The translations under genes were made by a program, and so were the position numbers. The notes below the pieces were generated by a model. That model had not been told where the DNA came from. It saw nothing but the letters and a program-made list of their open reading frames with translations, and ran no database searches. From Plasmodiophora brassicae (lineage: Eukaryota; Endomyxa; Phytomyxea; Plasmodiophorida; Plasmodiophoridae), in assembly GCA_039704465.1 (NCBI GenBank), contig JASFAU010000018.1, positions 186,001 to 250,000 of the forward strand: a stretch of DNA of 64,000 nt, written 5' to 3'. Shown here piece by piece: positions 19,759-62,621 of this stretch. Each line of letters begins with the position of its first letter. The stretch's first letter is position 1.

Positions 19759-19830
19759 GCCACAATGGCGCAGTGGCAGCGCACCCGCTTTGTAAGCGGT
19801 AGGCCGCGTGTTCAATCCACGCTTGTGGTA
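19759..19830 (+). tRNA. tRNA-Thr (anticodon TGT)
   Basis: Seventy-two bases fold into a full cloverleaf. The acceptor stem is GCCACAA with TTGTGGT (first pair G-U). The D stem is GCGC/GCGC. The anticodon loop TTTGTAA places TGT at positions 34-36, and the T arm is GCGTG-TTCAATC-CACGC. The first anticodon-stem pair is a C-U mismatch. Both internal pol III boxes are present (TGGCGCAGTGG, GTTCAATCC) and a TTTTT terminator follows at about 19842. There is no intron. It lies between the two Crinkler-header-like genes on the same strand. Confidence 0.93.
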
Positions 19831-26778: not shown

Positions 26779-28405
26779 CGTCAGGCGTACGTAGCATCAA
26801 CGCTGATTCTATCGCGTTCCCCTCGCTGTAGTCCGCAGTGCAGGTCCAGACAGAGAGAGAGAGGGTGCAGACAGTATAAATGGCTGCAGAGAATTGACGA
26901 CGTAAGGGCATCAGGGGATGGTCTCATTATCTGGACGAATTGGTCACGGACACCGAAACTTCACTATCGTCAGGCCGGCATCCCCGCGCAGAACGCGATC
27001 ATACTGCCGACGTTACTTGGCGCTTCTCAATTCATTATTTGTAAATAGACTCGAGCTAGACGGCGGCAACGATACGCCAGGTATATAAACCATGGAAGAC
27101 ACTTCTGAGAGACCAACTTGCGCAGTCAGCGTCGACATATTGGTACCGGTATGTACCGCGAATGTTCAACGGCAGGGTGGGTTTGATTCCCACTTGGATT
27201 GGGCCTCGGACGGACGTGTTCATTCCCGCAACTGGGCGACAAGTTCTGATCGAGGACCTCGAATTGCGTGCACACCAGTACAACCTGGAAACCTTACAAT
27301 CCAATCGAATCCATGAAGCGGAATCCGATTCGGTCGTTCGTGATTGAATAGCACACGTCTGGTGTCCGGTGTAATTATCGATTGGACGGCGGCGGGTATT
27401 GGGCGTGCACCTGGACGCATCGAATAGTGACGTGCGCGACCTTGACTCAGCGCACCCCAATAAGATGAACCGTCCGCCCCAACTGCAAATGCCCTTTTCC
27501 GAAACGGGCCAACCGCACTTCATCGTTGCTGCTCGCACCTGAGGCGGCAATGTAGCGCCCATCCGAGCCGTCCATCAACAGACGGCGACCTCGAATTAGC
27601 CGAGCCGCTGTCCTCTGACGGTTACGTTCATACAACACCGAATGTGCCGTATCTCATTCCGAATTGCGAAGCCAAATGGTGTTTGGCCTGTTCAGTACTC
27701 GGGAGGGGGACCACCGGGGAACCGCATGGTGATGTAACCTTTTTGGCCCACCTCTGATGACCGGCGCCGCCGGTGCGGTTGTCTTCCATCAGCAGCAGTT
27801 CACCACCAGGACGACCTGCTGGGCGGGTCGGTTTATCGGCTGCATTCGCAACCTACGTGGCGATGCGACACGCTGTTCGCGTCTGGCGTGCAGCAGGGTC
27901 GGCATCGTCGGTGGCCGGCAAAGCGGTTGACAATGGGGCGGGCTTGACGTCGCCGTTGCCCTTCAAGTAGCGGCAGTTTCCGACGACACGGCGCCCTCTG
28001 TCGTCGCTCACCCGACGTGAGTTCGATGCCCTGCGATTCAAAGCGGATGGCGAGTTCACGAAGGAGAGTCGAAGATTTGCTGAAGGTATCGGGTGCTGCA
28101 TCGTCCACGCTGCACGGCTGTTGCCTGGCGATACCCACCCAGTTATGCTTGAGATCTTCTCCTGCTGGATACGAGCCCTGGGAACCCGCACAGCGGTATT
28201 CTGTCACGCGGTGATACCCTCCTTGTGAACTTCCTCGTCAAAGCCATCGGTATATCGTGACCATGCCATCATCTCCGATGCTAACAAGTTGGGAACGCGC
28301 TGCGTATCTGCATAATGACGCGACCTACCTCACGATGCCTTTCTCTCACATTGATCGGCCATTGTCGCGTTTGCCAACAGTTCCAACACGTATTGAAGTT
28401 GTTTA
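26779..28405. other. Gene-poor interval with TATA-like motifs and scattered open segments
   Basis: The interval begins with a GA microsatellite (about 26848-26863) and two TATA-like motifs, AGTATAAATG (about 26873) and GTATATAAAC (about 27078). An open segment ending near 27347 (VGLIPTWIGPRTDVFIP, EDLELRAHQYNL) and another around 28010-28227 (EIFSCWIRALGTRTAVF) look protein-like, but neither has a clear start or splice plan. They may be remains of transposable elements like the hAT relic just downstream. Confidence 0.4.
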
Positions 28406-43274: not shown

Positions 43275-46200
43275 TCACCAGTAGTCGTTGCAAGAGCATC
43301 GGCCATTGCAGAACCGGTGGTGACGATTCGTGTCCCGGATGAAGATCTCGCGCTTGTACAGTACCGATACGGCCTTGGCGATTTCATGGCACTCGAAACA
43401 GATTCGATGATTCTTGGACATCACGTGGATGGGGCCGCCAGGCGGCAGCACCATGAGCGCGTACGTGATCACCAGCTTGTCAACGTGGATCGATGCAGGC
43501 CGGTCAACGTCTTCTGCCCGCTCCAACCAATGTCCAGACGCCGTCAGGCTCCGCATCAGACGCCGATACGTTTCCAGCAGATCCGGGTCGGTCATCGGTC
43601 CGTTTCTCGTATCATCGGAGCTGAAATGAATCGTTCGATCAGGGAGCATGAGCGATGCTGTTTCGCCCTGTGGCTTCTTCGCAAGACCCTGGACCCTCAT
43701 CTCCTCCCGAAGACGTTCCGCGTCTGAGTGACGGCGCACAGACGCGTAGATGCTGGAAAGGATGACATAGGCGCCTGCGAGATGCGACGATGCGTTGGGC
43801 AACGACTGAATGCGGGAAAAGACACGCTCCGCACGAACGACGTCGTTATGCTTGCGGCACGCGCTGAGGACGGTCGTCCACGTAACTTGGTCGGCTTGCG
43901 CGGACGACAGGGCAAGGTGCTCTGCTTGGTCCAGGTTGCCCGCCCGCCCATACAGATTGATCATGCAGTTCGTGTGGCGTGCATCGAAAGGTACGCGCCA
44001 CACCTGTTCGAATTCGGCGGCGATCGCGTTCGCGTCGTCGAGGGAACCTGTATGGCTGCAGGCCGTTAGCAGGGACAGCAACGTGATCGCGTCCGGCGTG
44101 ATCCCCGTCGCCTTCAGTCGCTCAAATGTGGATAACGCGTCCGGGAGCATGCCATGCCACCCGTACGTCGTAATCATGGAGTTGAACGTGACAAGAATGG
44201 GAGCTGCCTTCAACGACAGGAACAGGTGTTCTGCGCCGTCGATATGTCCACAATGCCCATACGACGATATGAGGCTGTTTGCAACGCCGATGTCATCTAG
44301 CAGGGCGTTCTCGCTGGCGAGTCGATGCAGGTCCTGGATGCTGGACAGCTCTGAGCAGCGACCGTACGCGGTGACGAAGGCATTGAAGACAGCCCTGTTG
44401 TGAAGGAGCGCGTGCTCGGTGACGTATTGCTGCAATTTGCGCAGGAAAGCGGTCTGTGCATTGCGGCCACAGGCAGAGATCAAGCAGCACAGGACCGGAG
44501 GACCCACGTCGATCCCTCGACCAGCCATCTCATCGAACATGTTCATGGCGTCTGGTATACGATCCGCCTTGGCGAATAACGATAGGACATTGTTGTAGAT
44601 TTCAAGGGTGACCTCCAGATCCGGCATGGCCTTGACCTCTTCGAATGTCGCAATCGCACTGTCAAGCATGTCGTTGTTCGCGTACGCGGCAATCAGGGCG
44701 TTAAACGTCGATGCACGCTGGTGAGGCGTGCTGCGAAGGACGTCATGCGCCTCGACGGGGCGCCCGCAATGCCCATAGGCGGCAATGAACGCGCTGACCA
44801 CGAATTCGTACCGCACGAGGCCGTTGGAGATCGCTGACTCATGAAGCGTTTGGATCGTCTTCAAATCCCGACACTGACCATAAGACGCGACCAGTGCCGG
44901 GAATACGTTGTCGTTCGAGAGCAGCGCGTTCTCCTCCGCGTACTGGTGAAGCGTCTTTAAAGGCCCCAGCGCGTTACACCCGGCAACAAGGCAAGCGAGC
45001 ACACGTGAGCCAATCTTCAGGCCCCGTGCCGATAGTTCGTCGAGCAATATGAGCGCTGTGGGGACGAGGTTCGCCTTTGCGTATACCGATAGGACGTTGT
45101 TGTAGACCTCAATGTTGCACTCGAGGCCAGCCTGGCGCAGGTCTTCGAATACGCATATGGCGCTGGAGAACATGCCGTTGTTGCTGTACGCAGAGATCAT
45201 GGTGTTGTACGTGGAAACACGAGGCGCTTTGACCGTGCAGAACAGGGCGTGCGCCTCTTCCGGGCGCTGACAGTGCCCGTAGGCTGAAATGAACGCGTTG
45301 ACGACAAATTCATCCTGCAGCAGCCGCGTCGACGATCCGCTTGTCCACGCGAAACGATGCAGCAGCTTAATGGAGGGCAAATCGCAACACTGCCCATAGG
45401 CGGCAACGAACGATGTGAACACGATCTTCCTCGCCAGGAGCACATTGCGTTCTGCGTACTCAGCGAGCATGTTCACCCTCTGCTTGTCCGCGCGGCGACC
45501 GCAGGTAGTGACCAGAATCGCAAGTACAGGCTCGTCGACGTTCATGTTGAGGGCAACCATTTCTCGGAACACGGCCATGGCCTCGTCAAGCTGATCCGCC
45601 TTTGCGTAGACGGACAGCATGTTCGTGTATATCTCGATGGTGAGCGGAAGGCGACTTGTTCTCAGGTCGTCAATCGCCTGTATCGCCTTCGCATGCTGCC
45701 CATTCTTCGCGTACGCAGCGATCAGCGCGTTGAAGTTCGAAACGTTCGGCGTCGTCGCCGCACGAAGAACACGCCGCGCCTCGTCGGGCCTGTTACAATG
45801 CCCGAACGCGGCAACGAACGCATTGACGGCGAACTCATCGTCAAGCAGTGGCGTGCCTCGACAGCCCTTAAACAGCGCCTGCAGAGCGTCGAATGATGCA
45901 GACCTGCCACACGCCGCAATCAGGGTCGTCAGATCGGGGGCAAACACAGGAATGCTGCGTTCCATCATCGACTGAAACACGGTCACCGCCTGGTCAATGC
46001 ATGAGGACTTCGTCAGAGCGCTGAACACAACCGCGTAAACGTGATTGGATGGGGGCACGCCGATCGTGTCGAGCAGAGAAAGCGCGTCGATCGCCGCATC
46101 GAATCGCGCTTGAGACAGCAGCGCCTTGATAAGGTTCGCGTAGAGCTGGTGTTGCTGATAGGGAGGGACGCGCTTGGAACGAACCAATTCGAGAAGGCGT

Positions 46201-46844
46201 TCGGCGGTGTCAGCGCCTTGCGCGCTCTGCGCTTCGGCGCAGCTGGCCGCCAATATCGACATGAGCATTTCGCTGAACTGCACAAAGTGGTCCAGAACGT
46301 CGGTCAAGAGAGGCAACGCCGATTCCGGGCGCTTAGCCAGCCGGCACAAACTGGCCAGACTGCAAATGACGTTGTGGGACCGGGGTCCACGAAGCCGCTG
46401 GTAGACGTCGAGAGCCTCGTCGAGTAGCGGCGGGTTTCCCGCCTTACACGCACCGAGAAACGTGCAGAACAGGCCGTCGTTCGTACTGACGGACACGCCT
46501 GTGAACGCGGCGGTCCGCACGACGTGCGGCGCCTTCGACGGGAGCGATCGCTGGCAGAACTGGAGCGCGCGCCGGAAGAACGGCTCGCGTGGTCGTAGTC
46601 CACTGCCGAGCACATGGCGGAATATGGCCCATCCGCGACCGGGATCGACCTCCTGCGACAGCAGGCGGACGGCAACGGGGATCGACGGATTCTGCCAGAA
46701 GTCGTCCAGTGCGCTGGGCGTCAGCGCCGCCCCGCCATCGACGACGCGATCGGCTGGCAGGGCAGGCGCCGCCTGACCAAAACGCCGACCCCGACGATAT
46801 CGCACATGGACGACGACGTTGACTGCATGAACCCGACGGTACAT
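43275..46844 (-). CDS. DYW-type pentatricopeptide repeat protein (organellar RNA editing type)
   Basis: A single intronless frame of 1,189 residues. The leader MYRRVHAVNVVVHVRYRRG is Arg-rich and suited to mitochondrial import. More than twenty PPR motifs follow (repeated AYGHCGRP, YNNVLSVYAKA, FNALIAAYA), organised in P, L and S types as in plants. E-type motifs (LLTACSHTGSLDDA, NLYGRAGNLDQAE, TTVLSACRKHNDVV) lead to a DYW domain. It holds PPGGPIHV, CFECHE, DTNRHHRF and ends CSCNDYW at the very stop. In plants this domain is the cytidine deaminase of C-to-U editing. Here the HxE site reads HVDK, with Asp in place of the catalytic Glu. The frame is open further upstream to 46898. Confidence 0.95.
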   Translation of the reverse strand: MYRRVHAVNVVVHVRYRRGRRFGQAAPALPADRVVDGGAALTPSALDDFWQNPSIPVAVRLLSQEVDPGRGWAIFRHVLGSGLRPREPFFRRALQFCQRSLPSKAPHVVRTAAFTGVSVSTNDGLFCTFLGACKAGNPPLLDEALDVYQRLRGPRSHNVICSLASLCRLAKRPESALPLLTDVLDHFVQFSEMLMSILAASCAEAQSAQGADTAERLLELVRSKRVPPYQQHQLYANLIKALLSQARFDAAIDALSLLDTIGVPPSNHVYAVVFSALTKSSCIDQAVTVFQSMMERSIPVFAPDLTTLIAACGRSASFDALQALFKGCRGTPLLDDEFAVNAFVAAFGHCNRPDEARRVLRAATTPNVSNFNALIAAYAKNGQHAKAIQAIDDLRTSRLPLTIEIYTNMLSVYAKADQLDEAMAVFREMVALNMNVDEPVLAILVTTCGRRADKQRVNMLAEYAERNVLLARKIVFTSFVAAYGQCCDLPSIKLLHRFAWTSGSSTRLLQDEFVVNAFISAYGHCQRPEEAHALFCTVKAPRVSTYNTMISAYSNNGMFSSAICVFEDLRQAGLECNIEVYNNVLSVYAKANLVPTALILLDELSARGLKIGSRVLACLVAGCNALGPLKTLHQYAEENALLSNDNVFPALVASYGQCRDLKTIQTLHESAISNGLVRYEFVVSAFIAAYGHCGRPVEAHDVLRSTPHQRASTFNALIAAYANNDMLDSAIATFEEVKAMPDLEVTLEIYNNVLSLFAKADRIPDAMNMFDEMAGRGIDVGPPVLCCLISACGRNAQTAFLRKLQQYVTEHALLHNRAVFNAFVTAYGRCSELSSIQDLHRLASENALLDDIGVANSLISSYGHCGHIDGAEHLFLSLKAAPILVTFNSMITTYGWHGMLPDALSTFERLKATGITPDAITLLSLLTACSHTGSLDDANAIAAEFEQVWRVPFDARHTNCMINLYGRAGNLDQAEHLALSSAQADQVTWTTVLSACRKHNDVVRAERVFSRIQSLPNASSHLAGAYVILSSIYASVRRHSDAERLREEMRVQGLAKKPQGETASLMLPDRTIHFSSDDTRNGPMTDPDLLETYRRLMRSLTASGHWLERAEDVDRPASIHVDKLVITYALMVLPPGGPIHVMSKNHRICFECHEIAKAVSVLYKREIFIRDTNRHHRFCNGRCSCNDYW

Positions 46845-47462
46845 TACATGCTGGGCCCCGCAGGCCGCAGTGGGAGCTGCAGTCCGCCGGGGCGCCACTT
46901 CGTTTCGTTGTCAAAAAAGCGCGCCCAGGCGTCCAGCGTGCGCCATTGCAGCCGACGAATGGCATTGCAGCCGAACAAACGGTATTGTAATTACAAGCAC
47001 ACATCAAGAAGCAGCAACTTATGTTCCGAAGGATTTGTCAGGGGAACGAAACTCGTTCTATCACCAGGTCAGACTGACATCACCAGCTGGCAATCGGACT
47101 CTTTTGATGCAACGAGCAAACATGTACTCCTTTAGCTGCAAATCGTGGCGCCACGTTCAGCATTAATGTGAGTTGTAAAATACATTCATTCTCGTCGTTT
47201 ATTATATGTCTGACATCCTTATTTCTCAAAGATTTTCCTTGAAATGGCCGTTTCCGGGTAGCCCCATTGGACGCAATTGTCGTTTCCGGGTAGCCGCCCG
47301 CTGTCGCGCACAAACGAATGCGCGGGATGCGCGACTCTGGACGAAGTGCGTCAGTGCCCCCGCGACGTCGTTTTAGAATTGTCCGTACCGTCCCGTAGCC
47401 CTAGGCCGCGGTCGCCGAACTGCGAAGTTCGCCCCCTGGTCACTGCTGCAGTGCTGCTTCCA
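46845..47462. other. Upstream region between the PPR gene and the first Zn2Cys6 gene
   Basis: About 620 bp between divergent genes. It is AT-rich in its centre and contains a direct repeat, CGTTTCCGGGTAGCC, at about 47249 and 47280. The repeat is a candidate regulatory element only by position. Confidence 0.4.
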
Positions 47463-55088: not shown

Positions 55089-58000
55089 ATGCGTCCCCTG
55101 TTCTGGGACGTCGCTGTCGTCGTGACCGCCCTTGCCGGGCTGGCGACTGGATCCGCCCCAGGCAGCGTGTCGACGTACGCCGGCGTCTGCGGGACCAGCG
55201 GGTATCGGGACGGGACGGCGACGAGCGCCACGTTCAGTACGCCGACGGGGCACGCGCTCGACTCCAAGGGCAACCTGTTCGTGGCCGACTCCGGCAACCA
55301 CCGGATCCGGAAGGTTGCCCCGAACGGAACCGTGTCCACGTTCGCCGGTTCGGGCAGCGCCGCGTTCGCCGATGGGCCCGGCACGTCGGCCAGCTTCAAC
55401 GCCCCCGCACAGCTCGTCGTCGACGCCAGCGACAACGTCTACGTCATCGATGTGAACAATCACGCCATTCGCAAGATATCGCCGTCGGGCAGCGTCACAA
55501 CGCTCGGTGAGTGCGTTCGTTTCCGCGACGTTCAACAACGCGGGCTGACGCGGCGACGGTATCGCTTCGCAGCCGGCCACGGTGGCACCTCGGGGTACCT
55601 GGACGCGAACGGCCCCCTCGCCTACTTCAACCGGCCGTCGGGCGCGTGCATCGACGCCAACGGCAACGTGTATGTCGCCGACCAGGGCAACAATCGCGTC
55701 CGGAGGATCACGCCGAGCGGCGTCGTGACGACCGTGGCGGGCAGCGGCGCTGCGACCGGGAACGACGGGCCGGGCACGGTCGCGTCGTTTGACCGCCCGG
55801 TCGGCATCGCGGTTGGCTCGAACGGGACGGTCCTGTACGTCGCCGAGAGCAACAGGCATCGTCTGCGCATGATCCGGCTCGTCAACACGACGTCGACCGT
55901 TGTGACGACGATGGCGGGGGCGTCGTCGGCGTCCGGGTTCCTGGACGGCCCCCCGATGCAGGCCTGGTTCAGCTACCCGTCGGCGCTGGCGACCGACCCT
56001 GCTGGCAACCTGTTCGTCGCCGATTGGGGCAACGCCCGCGTGCGGGTGCTCCAGGCGTCCGCGTCGTGGTACGTGTCCACCTGGATCGGGACGGCACCCG
56101 GGTACCGGGACGGGGCGCCCACGTCGTCGATGCTGAACGGGCCCGCTGGTCTCACGCTGAACGGGTCCGACGCCGTCTACGTCGCCGATAGCAAGTACGC
56201 CGCGATGACGTACGCCCGCGTCCCACGGCCGCTTGCTGACGTGTGTCGTCGCAGCAACCATTGCATTCGCAAGGTGCAGGTCGTGACCGATCGGGCAGTG
56301 GCGCCCGGGCCCGTCAGCACGTTGGCCGGGACGCTCGCGGTGTCCACCTTCCAAGACGGGGCGCCCGCAACGGCGACGTTCAACTCGCCGATGGGTCTGG
56401 CCCTCGACGCGTCCGGCAACGTGTTCGTCGCCGACGCGGGCAACGGGCGCATACGCAGGATCGCGCCCGGCGGCAACGTCACGACGTGGGCGGGCAACGG
56501 CACCGCCGCCTGCGCCGACGGGAGCGGCACGCGCGCCGCCTTCAACCTGCCGGGTCAGCTGGTCGTCGACGCCGGCGGCAACCTGTACGTCGTGGATCGG
56601 TACTGTCATGCGGTCAGGAAGATCGCGCCGTCGGGAGCCGTCTCGACGGTGGCGGGCGCCCTGGGCGTCGCCGGGTACGCCGACGGCCCGTCCGCCCTGT
56701 TGAACCAGCCGTTCGCCGCCTGCATCGACACGATCGGGAACCTGTACGTCGCCGAGCTCGGCAATCATCGCATCCGCAAGGTGACGCCGGCGGGCGTCGT
56801 GACCACGGTAGGAGCGCGGTCGACGCGGTCGTCGTCGCGACCTGCTCATGGCCCCGCGTCCGCCACAGGTCGCTGGCAGCGGTCAGGCCGCGTTCGCCGA
56901 CGGCACCGGCAACGCGGCCAGCTTCAACGCGCCGGCCGGCCTGGCCTGCGCGCCCAACGGCGACCTGTACGTGGCCGACCGCAACAACCATCGGATCCGC
57001 CGGGTGTCCCCGTCGGGCGACGTGACGACGCTCGCGGGCAGCGGCGCCGCCGGCGGCTTCCTCGACGGGCACCCGACCAGCGCCCAGTTCAACCTGCCGA
57101 CGGCCGTGGCGGTCGACGCCGACGGCAACCTGTTCGTGTCCGACGAGGGCAACTTCCGGATCCGCCTGCTGCTGGCGCCGACGTGGTACGTCGTCACGTT
57201 CGTCGGGGACGGGTCCGCGACGTTCCAGGACGGCGCGCCGACGTCCGCGACGGTCAACGGCGCCCTCGGCCTCGTCGTCAACGGCACGACGAACCTGCTG
57301 TTCGCCGACCAATGGTAACGCTGCCCCCTGTTTGCATTGGCGAGGTTGCCTCCCCTCCCTTCCAACGCGCGTCCGTCAGGAACCATCGCGTTCGGGCCGT
57401 CCAGCTGGTGCATGGGGGGCTTGCGCCCGCGCCTGGCGTCCAGTCGACGCCCGCCAGCATGCGCTGGTCGCCGTACACGTCGGGCACGGTCTCGACCTAC
57501 GCCGGGGCGTGCACGTCGCCGGGGTACGGCGACGGGCCCGCGATCGGGACCGCCCGGTTCGACTCGCCGCGCGGTCTGGCCCTGGACGCGCGCGGCAACC
57601 TGTACGTGGCCGACTCGGGCAACCACCGGATCCGGAAGGTGGCCCCGGACGGCACCGTGTCCACGTTCGCCGGGAGCGGGTCGCCCGCGTTCGCCGACGG
57701 GCCGGGGCCGTCGGCGAGCTTCAACGGCCCGACCCAGGTCGTTGTCGACGCCGACGACAACGTCTACGTGGTCGATCGGCACAACCACGCGATCAGGAAG
57801 GTGTCGCCGACGGGGCGGGTCACCACGCTCGCTGGGAGCGGCGGCCAGTCGGGCTACGTCGACGCGGCCGGCCCGCTGGCCGCCTTCAGCGAGCCGTATG
57901 GCGCGTGCGTCGACACCGCCGACGGGAGCCTGTACGTCACCGAGTTCGGCAATCATCGCGTGCGCAAGGTGACCGCGGCGGGCGTCGTCACCACCGTCGC

Positions 58001-61000
58001 CGGCAGCGGCACGGCCGGGTACGCGGACGGCGACGGGACCGCCGCCCAGTTCAGCAACCCGACCGGGATCGGCCTGGACGCGGCCGGCACGACGCTCTAC
58101 GTCGCCGACCAGGGCAACCGCCGCGTGCGGACGATCTCGACGTTGTCGGGCGCGGTGCGGACGATCGCGGGGAACGGCGTCCAGGGCACCCTGGATGGGC
58201 CCGCCCTGCAGGCCCAGCTCGACCTGCCCGAACTGGTCGCCGTCGACACCCTCGGCAACGTGTACGTCACGGGCAACACGACCGTCCGCGTCCTGCAGGC
58301 GTCCGCCTCGTGGTACGTGACGACCTGGGCGGGCACGTGGACGCCCGGGTACGCGGACGGCGCGCCGATGTCGTCCATGTGGAACCGACCCGCTGGCCTG
58401 GCGCTGAACGGGACCGGCAGCGTCCTCGTCAGCGATTACGGGTACGCCCGACCGTCACGTGTGCCGACCTGCCGTCGTCTGACGCCCCCGTGCCCCGAAG
58501 CAACCACTGCATCCGGAAGGTGGCGATCAGCGCCGTCGCGTCGTCGGCGTTCGAGCCCGGCCCGATCACGACGTACGCGGGGACGGGTGTCGCATCGTAC
58601 GCGGACGGGATCGCCGCCGAAGCGGCGTTCAACGCGCCCAGGGGCGTCGTGGGCGATTCGCGCGGCAACCTGTACGTGGCCGACTCGTTCAACCAGCGGA
58701 TCCGGAAGATCGCCCCGGACGGCGCCGTGTCGACCTGGGCGGGCGGCGACGCGGCCGGGTTCGCCGACGGCCAGGGCGCGGCCGCCCGGTTCAACAACCC
58801 CGCCCAGCTCGTCGTCGACGCCGACGACAACGTCTACGTCATGGACTGGTACAACCACGCCGTCCGGAAGATCAGCCCGGCGGGGCGCGTCACGACGTTC
58901 GCCGGCCTCGGCGGCGCGTCCGGCTACCGGGACGGGACGGGCGCGGGCGCCCTGTTCGACCAGCCGTACGCCGCCTGCATCGACGCCAGCGGGAACATCT
59001 ACGTCGCCGAGTGGGGCAACCACCGCATCCGGAAGGTGACGCCCGCCGGCGTCGTCACCACGGTTCGTTGGGGGAACGACGGCGCCGCCGCCTGCCCCAT
59101 CACCTCACGCCCCGTTGTCGTCAGGTTGCCGGGAGCGGGAACGCGTCGTTCGCGGACGGGGCCGGCACGGCCGCCAGCTTCAACACGCCCGGTGGCGTTG
59201 CGGTCGGCCCCGGCGGCGACCTGTTCGTCGCCGACCAGTACAACCATCGGATCCGGCGGGTCACGCCGACGGGCCAGGTGACCACGATCGCCGGCGTCGG
59301 GACGGGCGCCGGCGGGTTCGCCGACGGCCCGGCGGCCACCGCCGCCTTCAACCTGCCGACCAACGTGGCCGTCGACCAGCGCGGCAACCTGTTCGTGTGC
59401 GACCGGGCCAACAACCGCATCCGAATGCTGCAGGCGCCGTCGTGGTACGTGACGACGTGGGCCGGGCGCGGGAGCCCCGCCTTCCAGGACGGGGCGCCGA
59501 CGTCCGCCGGCATGAACGAACCGCTGGGCCTGTTCCTGAACGGCTCCACCCTGTTCTTCTCCGACCAATAGTACGATACGCGCGCGCGCGCGTGCGAACG
59601 TGCTGGCCGCGGTCGCTGACGTGTGTCCCCTGGGGCAGCAACCATCGGGTCCGGCGAATGGAGATGCTTCGGGCGCCGGCGCCGTCGTCAACGTCAGCAC
59701 GGCGGGCGCCGATCACATCCCGGCCAGTGGTGGTGCGGGCGTCGGCGCGCTCGCCCAGCCCATCCCGACGGCGCCCGCCGCCGCCGCCGCCGCCGCTCGC
59801 CGTCTCGGTTCGGGCGCAGGACGTGCTGGACCCGTCGCAGGCGTTCACGTTGTACGGGTCCGTCTCGGGCGTGCCGGCGCCCTGGTCGTCGTTCCAGTCG
59901 CAGTGGCGCTGCGACCAGCTCGACGTCGACGCCAGCGCCGACGTCCCGCCCGCCGACACGCTGACCCTGCGCCTGTCGCCGAACGTCCTGGCGCCTGGCA
60001 CCACCTACCGGATCGCGTTGACCGTAACGGTCAACGGCGTCGTCGGCAACGGGACCTTCGCGCTCGTCGTACCGTCTGCGCCGACCGGCGGGCGCCTATC
60101 CGTCTCGTGCAACGACGTCAGGCCGGTCGCCCTTGCGTCAACGTTCACGCTGACGTCCTGGGGCTGGACGACGACGACGACGAGCGCGCTCTTCTACTCG
60201 TTCACGTATCGGGACGCGTCGGGCGGGGCCGAGTACGCGCTGGCGACCGTGTCGTCGGCGGTCGCCGGCGCCCAGGTCCGCCTGCCCGCTGGCGACCCCG
60301 CCCGCAACGACACGCTCGTCGTGCTGGTCCGCGCCGGGATCGTCGGCACGCGGATCGTATCGGCCGCCGTCCCCGTCGTCGTCCAGGTGCACGCGCCGCC
60401 CGCGTCGCTGACGGTGGCCGCCATCGCCAACCTGTCGGCGACCGTCACCAACCCCGGCGAGGTCGTCACGCTCGTGCAGACGGGCGCGCTGCTGCTGCTC
60501 TCGGCGGCCAGCGACGACGTCGACGTCGACGCCGCGCGACACGACCTCGTCGCCCTGCTGACGAAGGCGAACGCCGCCGCCAACGGGACCGTGCCGCCGG
60601 ACCAGGTCGCCCAGGCGCTGTCGTCGTTGGCAACGGGGCGGGCGCTGTCGGCGAACACGTCGCGGTCGGTCGTCGACCTCGGCCTGGACCTCGTCCAGGC
60701 CGAGGGCCTGTCGCAGGGCGGCCTGGCGCACCTGGCGCAGGCGGCGTCGGCGTCGGCGACGGCGGCGCCCTCGTCCGCCCACGCCCTCGTCGACCGGATC
60801 GGGGCGGCGCAGCTGGACGCCCAGATCGCCTGCCAGCGCCCGTCGTCGATCGCGACGGCGGCCTTCACGACCCAGGTCTGGGTCGTCGACGACGGGCGGC
60901 GACGCCGCCCCTGCCCGACGGGGCCGGTCACGCTGCCCCAGCTGTCGACGATGCGGTTGTTGCCGCCGGGTGCCGGGCCCATGGCCAGCATCGGCCTGCA

Positions 61001-62621
61001 ACGAACGAACTGGTCGTCGTCGACGGGCGGCGTCGGCGGCGGCAACGACCCGCGGCTCATCAGTCCCGTCGTCACCGTCAACGCGTTCGTCGTCAACGAA
61101 CCCGGCGCCGCACCTGTGCCGCACACGGTGGCGAACCTGTCGGAGCCGATCCTGGTCGACATGGCCCTCCTGGTGGGGGACAACGCGACCGCGGCGCTGG
61201 GGGCGTGCGAACCGGCGGTCGTGCGGCGCCCGGTCTGCGTCACGTTCGACGTGGCGCGCGGCAACTGGACGACGGCCGGGTGCGCGACGGTGGGCGGCGC
61301 GAACGGCACCGTGACGTGCGCGTGCACGCACCTGACCGACTTCGCCCTGATGCTGTACATGGAGCGTCGCCCGCCCACGTCGCCGTGCACCGCCTACCAC
61401 GACGTCGTCCTTGACGACGCCACCGTCCATCGACGGTTCATCGTGGCGTACGCCGCGTTCCTGCTGATCGCGATGGAGCTCGCCAGGCGCACGCGACGCT
61501 TCGTCGTCAAGGTGCACGCGCGTCGGGCCGTGTACGCCTGCCTGGGCATGGCGACGTCGATCTGCGCCGTCCGGTTCGCCGCGTCCTGCGTCATTGTGTC
61601 GGGGGCGCCGCCCGCCCCGATCTGGGCGTACGCGCTCTGGGGCGTCGTCCCTGTCGTCGTCCAGTTCCACCTGCTCACCTTCTTCATCATCTTCATCTGG
61701 TCGTTCGGCGACCGCATCCGGCGCATGTCGACGGCGCCCGCCTCGGCCCTGCTGGCCGGGTTCCACTACCCGTACTTCATCGGGAACGCCCTGCTGGTGC
61801 TGGCCGTCCCCACGCTGCTGGTCGCGGGCATCGCCATCCCCGCCCGGGCCGTCACCCTGTTCGACGCCGCGTCCCTGCTCGTCGCTGGCGTGTGCCTCGT
61901 CTGCAGCGTCAGCTTCCTGATCGTCGCCAGGCAGCTGTTCGCGATCCTGTCGGAGGCGGCCGCGTCGATGCGGGACACGCACCCGGACCAGGCGCGCGCC
62001 TACCTGTCGGTCGGGCGCTTCGTGACCGGCGTCTGCACCGCGTTCTGCATCGTGCTCATGATGCAGTGCGCGCTGTGGACGTTCTCGGTCGTGTTCCCGG
62101 GCCAGTACCTGGCCGGGTACCTCGTCTACTACAGCGCGTTCCTGGCCTGCGACCTGCTGAACATCGCCCTGGTCTTCCTGTTCTGCTCCAACACGGTCAG
62201 CAAGGCGAAGGCCTCCGTCAGCCAGCAGACGTCGTCGGCGTCGGCGAAACACTTCCGCCTTGGGATGTGGAAGCCGGGACGGCAGCCGGATCGTGGCCTG
62301 CAGATGCCGGTGCACGCGACGTCGCCTTCCCTGGCGACGTCCTCGACCGATGTGTTCGGCGATCGCACGCGGATGGCGAACGGGACGTCGCTGAACGAGG
62401 ACATCCTGGAGAGCGTCTGGCAGCTGGCCGTCCGGATGATGATGATGACGATCGCCGCTGCCGACCTGCACCAGACGATGGGCAGCAGGCCGGAGTCGGT
62501 CGAGGACGGCCACCTGGCCAGCCAGTTCGCCACCACGCTCAGCCGAGCGGAGCGCCGACACCCGGCCAGCTATGCCTCGAATCAAGGCCGGCCTGCGCCC
62601 AGTCAGCCCGACCGCCCTTGA
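55089..62621 (+). CDS. NHL(x24)-REJ-GPS-7TM surface receptor, 2,363 residues
   Basis: Seven introns (55507-55572, 56195-56254, 56808-56868, 57315-57379, 58442-58500, 59063-59124, 59571-59638) leave one exact frame. After a signal peptide come 24 NHL repeats of the form VSTFAGSG...DGxG...F..P..L.VD..GN.YVAD..NHRIRKV. They fall into four sets of six. A Pro-rich linker leads to a REJ-like region (LAPGTTYRIALTVTVNG, TGGRLSVSC, TFTLTSWGW). A GAIN-like helical part follows, and a GPS-type site CACTHLTDFALML. Seven spans come next (FIVAYAAFLLIAME to YYSAFLACDLLNIALVFLF), then a Ser-rich cytoplasmic tail of about 135 residues. The 7TM pattern recalls the TOM1/THH1 family more than animal adhesion GPCRs. 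The protein probably senses an extracellular ligand and may self-cleave. Confidence 0.92.

Follow-up and report, generated by a model that had tools for sequence, protein, structure and literature searches.

A probable adhesion-receptor-like gene with four NHL propellers and an orphan seven-span part in Plasmodiophora brassicae

A stretch of 64,000 nucleotides from Plasmodiophora brassicae (assembly GCA_039704465.1, contig JASFAU010000018.1, positions 186,001 to 250,000 of the forward strand; here called the window, and C18:186001-250000 in the genome scan) carries at 55089..62621 of its forward strand a receptor gene that is real and unusual: its layout is like that of animal adhesion receptors, and its membrane part matches no family tested. 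The reading favored here, at a probability of about 0.65 and drawn from sequence comparison, is that of a receptor resembling the adhesion G-protein-coupled receptors (GPCRs), with a signal peptide, four NHL propellers, a partial REJ region, a GAIN domain with an intact GPS proteolysis site, an orphan seven-transmembrane (7TM) part and a tail. In the mechanism proposed for such a receptor, the GAIN domain would cut itself during passage through the secretory pathway, the propellers may bind a protein or glycan ligand that is either secreted or on a surface, and the N-terminal fragment could be displaced by force or binding. The strand thus exposed, TDFALMLYM, would then dock into the seven-span bundle, which would signal inside the cell, probably to heterotrimeric G proteins. 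The genome (25.3 Mb scanned, in 21 contigs) holds about 20 or more G-alpha loci across many contigs, a number obtained by sorting 82 exon matches into loci by eye.

Gene structure and the propeller array

The splice reading yields eight exons and seven introns, all seven bounded by GT and AG and between 59 and 68 nucleotides long, that join into 7,092 nucleotides (2,363 codons plus stop) with no internal stop, so that the spliced frame given in the initial annotation is exact. GC content at third codon positions (GC3) is 87-98% per exon versus 54-59% at second positions, and the introns have 64-74% GC. Across positions 56001-62000 of the window, over the receptor gene, GC stands at 72-73% versus 61.7% for the whole window. 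Introns 1 and 2 (66 and 60 nucleotides) are in frame and stop-free, and their removal is consequently deduced from the register of the repeated blades; the lengths of the other five are not divisible by three, so that these introns would shift the frame if retained, and introns 4 and 7 also contain a stop. RNA folding around intron 7 gave no signal (z 1.33). The gene and the features of its propeller part, all on the + strand, are as follows.

55089..62621, +, whole coding region, 8 exons, 2,363 codons plus stop (splice reading, GC3)
55089..55151, +, signal-peptide-like hydrophobic start, residues 1-21 (by eye, no signal-peptide program)
55167..56312, +, NHL propeller 1, residues 27-366, 6 blades (blade scan, Pfam)
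55507..55572, +, intron 1, phase 1, 66 nucleotides (splice reading, as for all introns)
56195..56254, +, intron 2, phase 2, 60 nucleotides, inside blade 6 of propeller 1
56313..57488, +, NHL propeller 2, residues 367-716, 6 blades and linker (blade scan, Pfam)
56808..56868, +, intron 3, phase 0, 61 nucleotides, start of blade 4 of propeller 2
57315..57379, +, intron 4, phase 2, 65 nucleotides, inside blade 6 of propeller 2
57489..58564, +, NHL propeller 3, residues 717-1055, 6 blades (blade scan, Pfam, PDB profile match)
58442..58500, +, intron 5, phase 2, 59 nucleotides, inside blade 6 of propeller 3
58565..59669, +, NHL propeller 4, residues 1056-1380, 6 blades, final strand on the last exon (blade scan, Pfam)
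59063..59124, +, intron 6, phase 0, 62 nucleotides, start of blade 4 of propeller 4
59571..59638, +, intron 7, phase 2, 68 nucleotides, inside blade 6 of propeller 4, linking the propellers to the REJ-GPS-7TM exon (also present in the C20 paralog)

The 24 NHL repeats and four six-bladed propellers of the initial annotation are likewise borne out by the sequence. A pattern scan gave 24 hits, of which that at residue 932 is spurious, and a true blade at about residue 640 was added by eye; the resulting 24 blades fall into four sets of six, with a blade-to-blade spacing of mostly 53-60 residues and Pfam NHL matches (PF01436) in all seven propeller exons. Propellers 1 and 3 (63.5% identity) and propellers 2 and 4 (62.7%) are the closest pairs, the four other pairs lying at 53.0-57.6%. 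Both intron positions of propeller 2 are those of propeller 4, and all four propellers have a phase-2 intron in blade 6. These pairings and common intron positions indicate that the array of four probably arose when a double propeller was duplicated. Among the closest solved NHL relatives in a PDB profile search are a teneurin-like protein (9ifo, 5.4e-64), SOQ1 (2.5e-34) and NHLRC2 (2.2e-27), and the propellers thus appear to be of the ordinary NHL type; the TTR domain of teneurins matched nowhere in the genome.

The best evidence that propellers and REJ-GPS-7TM part form one gene, as the initial annotation had it, comes from a paralog on contig C20 (about C20:595476-605093). This gene has four propellers, a phase-2 intron in the last blade, a long TTRRP stalk, a region that aligns with the REJ part of the window gene but fails the Pfam REJ model, a GPS and a 7TM part. 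Its propellers are 59-72% identical to those of the window gene in the best-matching stretches, and the conservation of the join in two copies that differ there by 28-41% indirectly supports a single gene. A pair of adjacent genes, consisting of a secreted four-propeller protein ending at the TAG at 59569-59571 and a REJ-GPS-7TM receptor starting near 59658 (MEML), appears very unlikely. It would account for the TAG that is met immediately when intron 7 is read through, for the database copy of the C-terminal part (P0001), which begins at MEML but may reflect an intron-unaware gene call, and for the existence of relatives that have the core and no propeller in frame. The TAG, however, is the product of a tyrosine codon split before the GT of the intron, and it is met in frame in both the window gene and the C20 paralog, which have the same intron, phase and join. 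Furthermore, the closing strand of blade 24 sits on the last exon, so that a gene ending within intron 7 would leave the last propeller open, the gap between the two supposed genes would be 68 nucleotides, and the REJ part alone has, by eye, no signal peptide.

The cleavage site, the tethered strand and the spans

The last exon contains, in order, the strand that closes blade 24, a short stalk rich in proline, the REJ match, the GPS, the membrane part and the tail. Its features are these.

59955..60413, +, REJ match PF02010, E 5.2e-10, profile positions 270-420 of 452 only (Pfam)
60414..61229, +, presumed rest of the GAIN region, from REJ to GPS, alignable in 9 paralogous rows (the end part matches adhesion GPCRs, the remainder is placed by position)
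61230..61349, +, GPS match PF01825, E 2.3e-9 (Pfam; aligned with ADGRD1 and ADGRF1)
61332..61337, +, predicted cleavage point between HL and T, residues 1935 and 1936, followed by the tethered-agonist-like strand TDFALMLYM
61383..62228, +, seven probable transmembrane helices (low-confidence models, pLDDT 44.9 and 55.0; hydropathy finds six)
62394..62423, +, cytoplasmic tail motif NEDILESVWQ, which varies but is alignable in paralogs (paralog alignment)

The GPS-type site CACTHLTDF named in the initial annotation lies at 61317-61343, within the Pfam match that confirms it. A profile of nine rows, the window gene and its paralogs, matched in its GAIN/GPS part the solved adhesion GPCRs ADGRD1 (8.5e-9) and ADGRF1 (5.3e-8) as well as further members of that group. 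The motif CxCTHLTDFA is kept in all nine rows, together with an upstream cysteine and tryptophan, and TDFALMLYM stands in register with TNFAILM of ADGRD1 and TSFSILM of ADGRF1. With respect to membership of the adhesion GPCRs, the protein thus appears to have a GAIN-type match, a GPS with an intact HL-T cleavage motif, and a tethered-agonist-like strand after the predicted cut. The self-cleaving stalk of the initial annotation stands insofar as the matches to solved adhesion GPCRs argue for a GAIN domain, but no GAIN fold was modelled with confidence. Its REJ-like region is found but is partial, only the C-terminal part of the profile being aligned, and the REJ label is marginal in this receptor family, since the C20 region fails the model, which in the genome scan passes at the places of eight of the nine rows, the exception being L011.

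The seven spans are to be considered probable. Single-sequence AlphaFold2 models have exactly seven long helices, at the low confidence of pLDDT 44.9 for the GAIN-7TM part and 55.0 for the 7TM part alone, but a hydropathy scan at a cut of 1.6 finds six spans in the window copy, missing the first (TM1). With these low-confidence models, Foldseek returned no match below 0.001 and VIA-align mixed GPCRs with BAR domains, and no Pfam family passes on the 7TM part in the ten members of an alignment made for it (A2). A stretch DR[IM]..[ML]ST follows the third span in 7/10 of these members, and it and the ILE..W-like motif of the tail are candidate partner sites.

A local family with exchanged outer parts

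The window gene is one of about a dozen local GAIN-7TM genes, which form a family in which, judging from the alignments, the core is kept and the outer part is exchanged. A GPS-7TM query found 10 places in the genome and the GPS model 14, the window's own included in both, and with L017, whose GPS lies below the Pfam cut-off, 15 GPS-bearing genes were seen. Nine of these 15 form the rows of the profile used above (A1), and ten those of A2 and of a GAIN-7TM alignment (A3). A2 omits L016/L037 and L036, whose frames are cut, L033, which has no span in its frame, L034, which the motif pattern did not match, and L035, which has other spans; A1 additionally lacks L017. Very long TTRRP(T) stalks with extensin-like matches precede the core in L009, L011 and L032, LRR-like repeats below the cut-off are found in L036, and L012 and L014 have nothing named in frame outside the core. 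The cytoplasmic end of the relative L017 (C8:1182378) bears an SH3 domain (SH3_1, 7.3e-8). Among the places found, propellers and 7TM part occur together only in the window gene and the C20 gene, and a similar kind of ectodomain, two NHL propellers with a proline-rich linker, is found on a single-span protein (L046, C14:416390-418389, - strand). In L009, several reading frames stay open through the repeat DNA.

Contig C16 has three members inside 25 kb and C20 two inside 11 kb, a clustering that suggests expansion in tandem. The tree does not place the two NHL members as sisters, with the caveat that the branch of the window gene is long, as the tree itself warns; on this tree the propellers would be either ancestral and then lost, or moved. 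Nonsynonymous rates (dN) are below synonymous rates (dS) in all six chosen paralog pairs for which they were computed. L034 (C4:783500-793400) has a frame of 1,972 residues with a full-length REJ (6.1e-49), a GPS and a weak EGF match, and a further REJ-GPS place exists on C3; no PLAT or channel model matched L034 at E up to 1, and none was found in L035.

Against a collection of 5.8 billion proteins, region 1480-2250 of the spliced protein and the ten-row A3 found no homologue, and A1 recovered the window gene's own copy (P0001) and one REJ-GPS protein, P0002 (REJ 1.6e-18, sub-threshold GPS), which aligns over the REJ and the part that follows. Each search scored about 8,000 candidates, that with A1 drew its search words from the first 500 residues, and the eukaryote share of the collection is uncertain, so that an absence of homologues elsewhere is not established. 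In the six-frame genome search, which can miss exon-split genes, cadherin and chlorophyll-binding profiles had no match; nor did integrin-beta, a weak negative, as the control profile also matched nowhere. With 7tm_2 also unmatched, the genome is probably that of neither a choanoflagellate nor a filasterean, groups that have such genes. Two GTPase places, L042 (C2:571055) and L043 (C10:398918), were named by no profile and are presumably elongation-factor-like (EFL) proteins, and no ordinary EF-1alpha was found among the four read of 32 GTPase places. According to one study, EFL is present in apusomonads and ancyromonads (PMC3699394).

Elsewhere in the window, the - strand at 43278-46910 encodes a PPR protein of 1,211 residues with an E motif and a DYW deaminase domain (PPR 1.2e-74, DYW 1.7e-20), resembling plant-type organelle RNA-editing factors. 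A 5S rRNA lies at 27620-27740 and a tRNA gene at 19759-19830.

Alternative readings and comparison with known systems

A true animal-type adhesion GPCR of class B2, with a 7TM part diverged past Pfam detection, is rather unlikely: the cleavage region would suit it, but 7tm_2 is absent from the Pfam matches of the ten A2 members at E up to 10 (HMMER filters drop most matches above 0.1), no chain in the PDB matched the 7TM profile at E up to 10, and 7tm_2 was not found in the genome, where this negative is weak because the control profile was empty too. The pairing of REJ with GPS is that of the polycystins, and a partial REJ plus GPS is what the last exon has. A polycystin-1-like or REJ protein, with spans that cooperate with a partner channel or serve in fertilisation or in sensing by the cilium, and with propellers in place of the usual ectodomain, would also fit P0002, the only other database relative, as well as L034 and the REJ-GPS place on C3. 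It would have a precedent in the brown-algal Esi0130_0068, with REJ, GPS and 6-7 predicted spans, which is read as a polycystin-1-like/REJ protein (PMC4700764). Nevertheless, this reading is unlikely, given that no PLAT or polycystin channel domain matched the last exon at E up to 1, although L034 and L035 are also without one, and that the strand TDFALMLYM fits the pattern of the adhesion GPCRs.

The third possibility concerns the 7TM part alone, which the initial annotation had likened to TOM1/THH1 and which might belong to that plant group or to the protist RSF group said to resemble it. One of the ten A2 members has a weak match to PF06454 (TOM1/THH1) with an E value of 0.015, and the RSF receptors, which a 2025 survey by Garcia De Las Bayonas and King links weakly to TOM1, are reported there from amoebozoans, ancyromonads and other lineages (PMC12716839). 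That match, however, reaches 15.2 bits against a cut-off of 25 and is out of register, laying late profile positions 165-218 on TM1-TM2. The RSF motif NxLQxxMNxL, placed between TM6 and TM7 in the survey, occurs in none of the ten members, and RSF proteins are described there without any other domain (PMC12716839). The TOM1/THH1 label of the initial annotation is not supported and was rejected, and membership of either group is very improbable.

The adhesion-GPCR-like receptor with an orphan 7TM part remains the preferred reading. It raises the tentative and somewhat doubtful idea that the adhesion GPCR was invented twice, independently. In the second event a protist outside the holozoans would have joined a self-cleaving GAIN domain, with its tethered agonist, to seven spans of an origin other than class B, and the product would then have diversified into roughly a dozen receptors whose parts can be swapped (four NHL propellers, TTRRP stalks, LRR-like repeats, a C-terminal SH3). 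The same survey places the first joining of GAIN and 7TM in stem holozoans, which leaves a second origin possible but unproven, and it describes ichthyosporean, corallochytrean and non-holozoan adhesion GPCRs without extra extracellular domains (PMC12716839). No paper describing NHL, GPS and 7TM in one protein came up in the searches made for it in an open-licence library, in line with the view of the initial annotation that such an order, there with a TOM1/THH1-like 7TM pattern, is not known to have been described. If true, a GAIN-7TM family with an unmatched 7TM part outside holozoans would mean that a tethered agonist can join a different seven-span bundle. What a 7TM part requires to be driven by a tethered peptide would become testable by comparison, and the family would offer a protist system for studying ectodomain exchange.

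Compared with known systems, the receptor gene shares its NHL sequence type with NHL proteins such as the teneurin-like 9ifo, SOQ1, NHLRC2 and TRIM71, but differs in having four propellers in tandem, and none of these is known as a receptor with a GPS and seven spans. With TOM1/THH1/TOM3 and RSF it has in common seven probable spans and one weak Pfam match, but that match is sub-threshold and misaligned, the RSF motif is absent, and RSF proteins are described as lacking other domains. Polycystin-1 and REJ proteins, including the algal Esi0130_0068 with its 6-7 predicted spans, likewise place a REJ and then a GPS at the membrane, whereas the receptor gene has only the C-terminal part of REJ, no PLAT or channel match, and four propellers. 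From adhesion GPCRs such as ADGRD1, ADGRF1 and the latrophilins it differs in having no 7tm_2 match, no Pfam match to HRM in the last exon, a partial REJ before the GAIN region and four NHL propellers, but it resembles them in its modular ectodomain, its GAIN region with CxCxHLT and a predicted cut before the T, its agonist-like strand and its probable seven spans.

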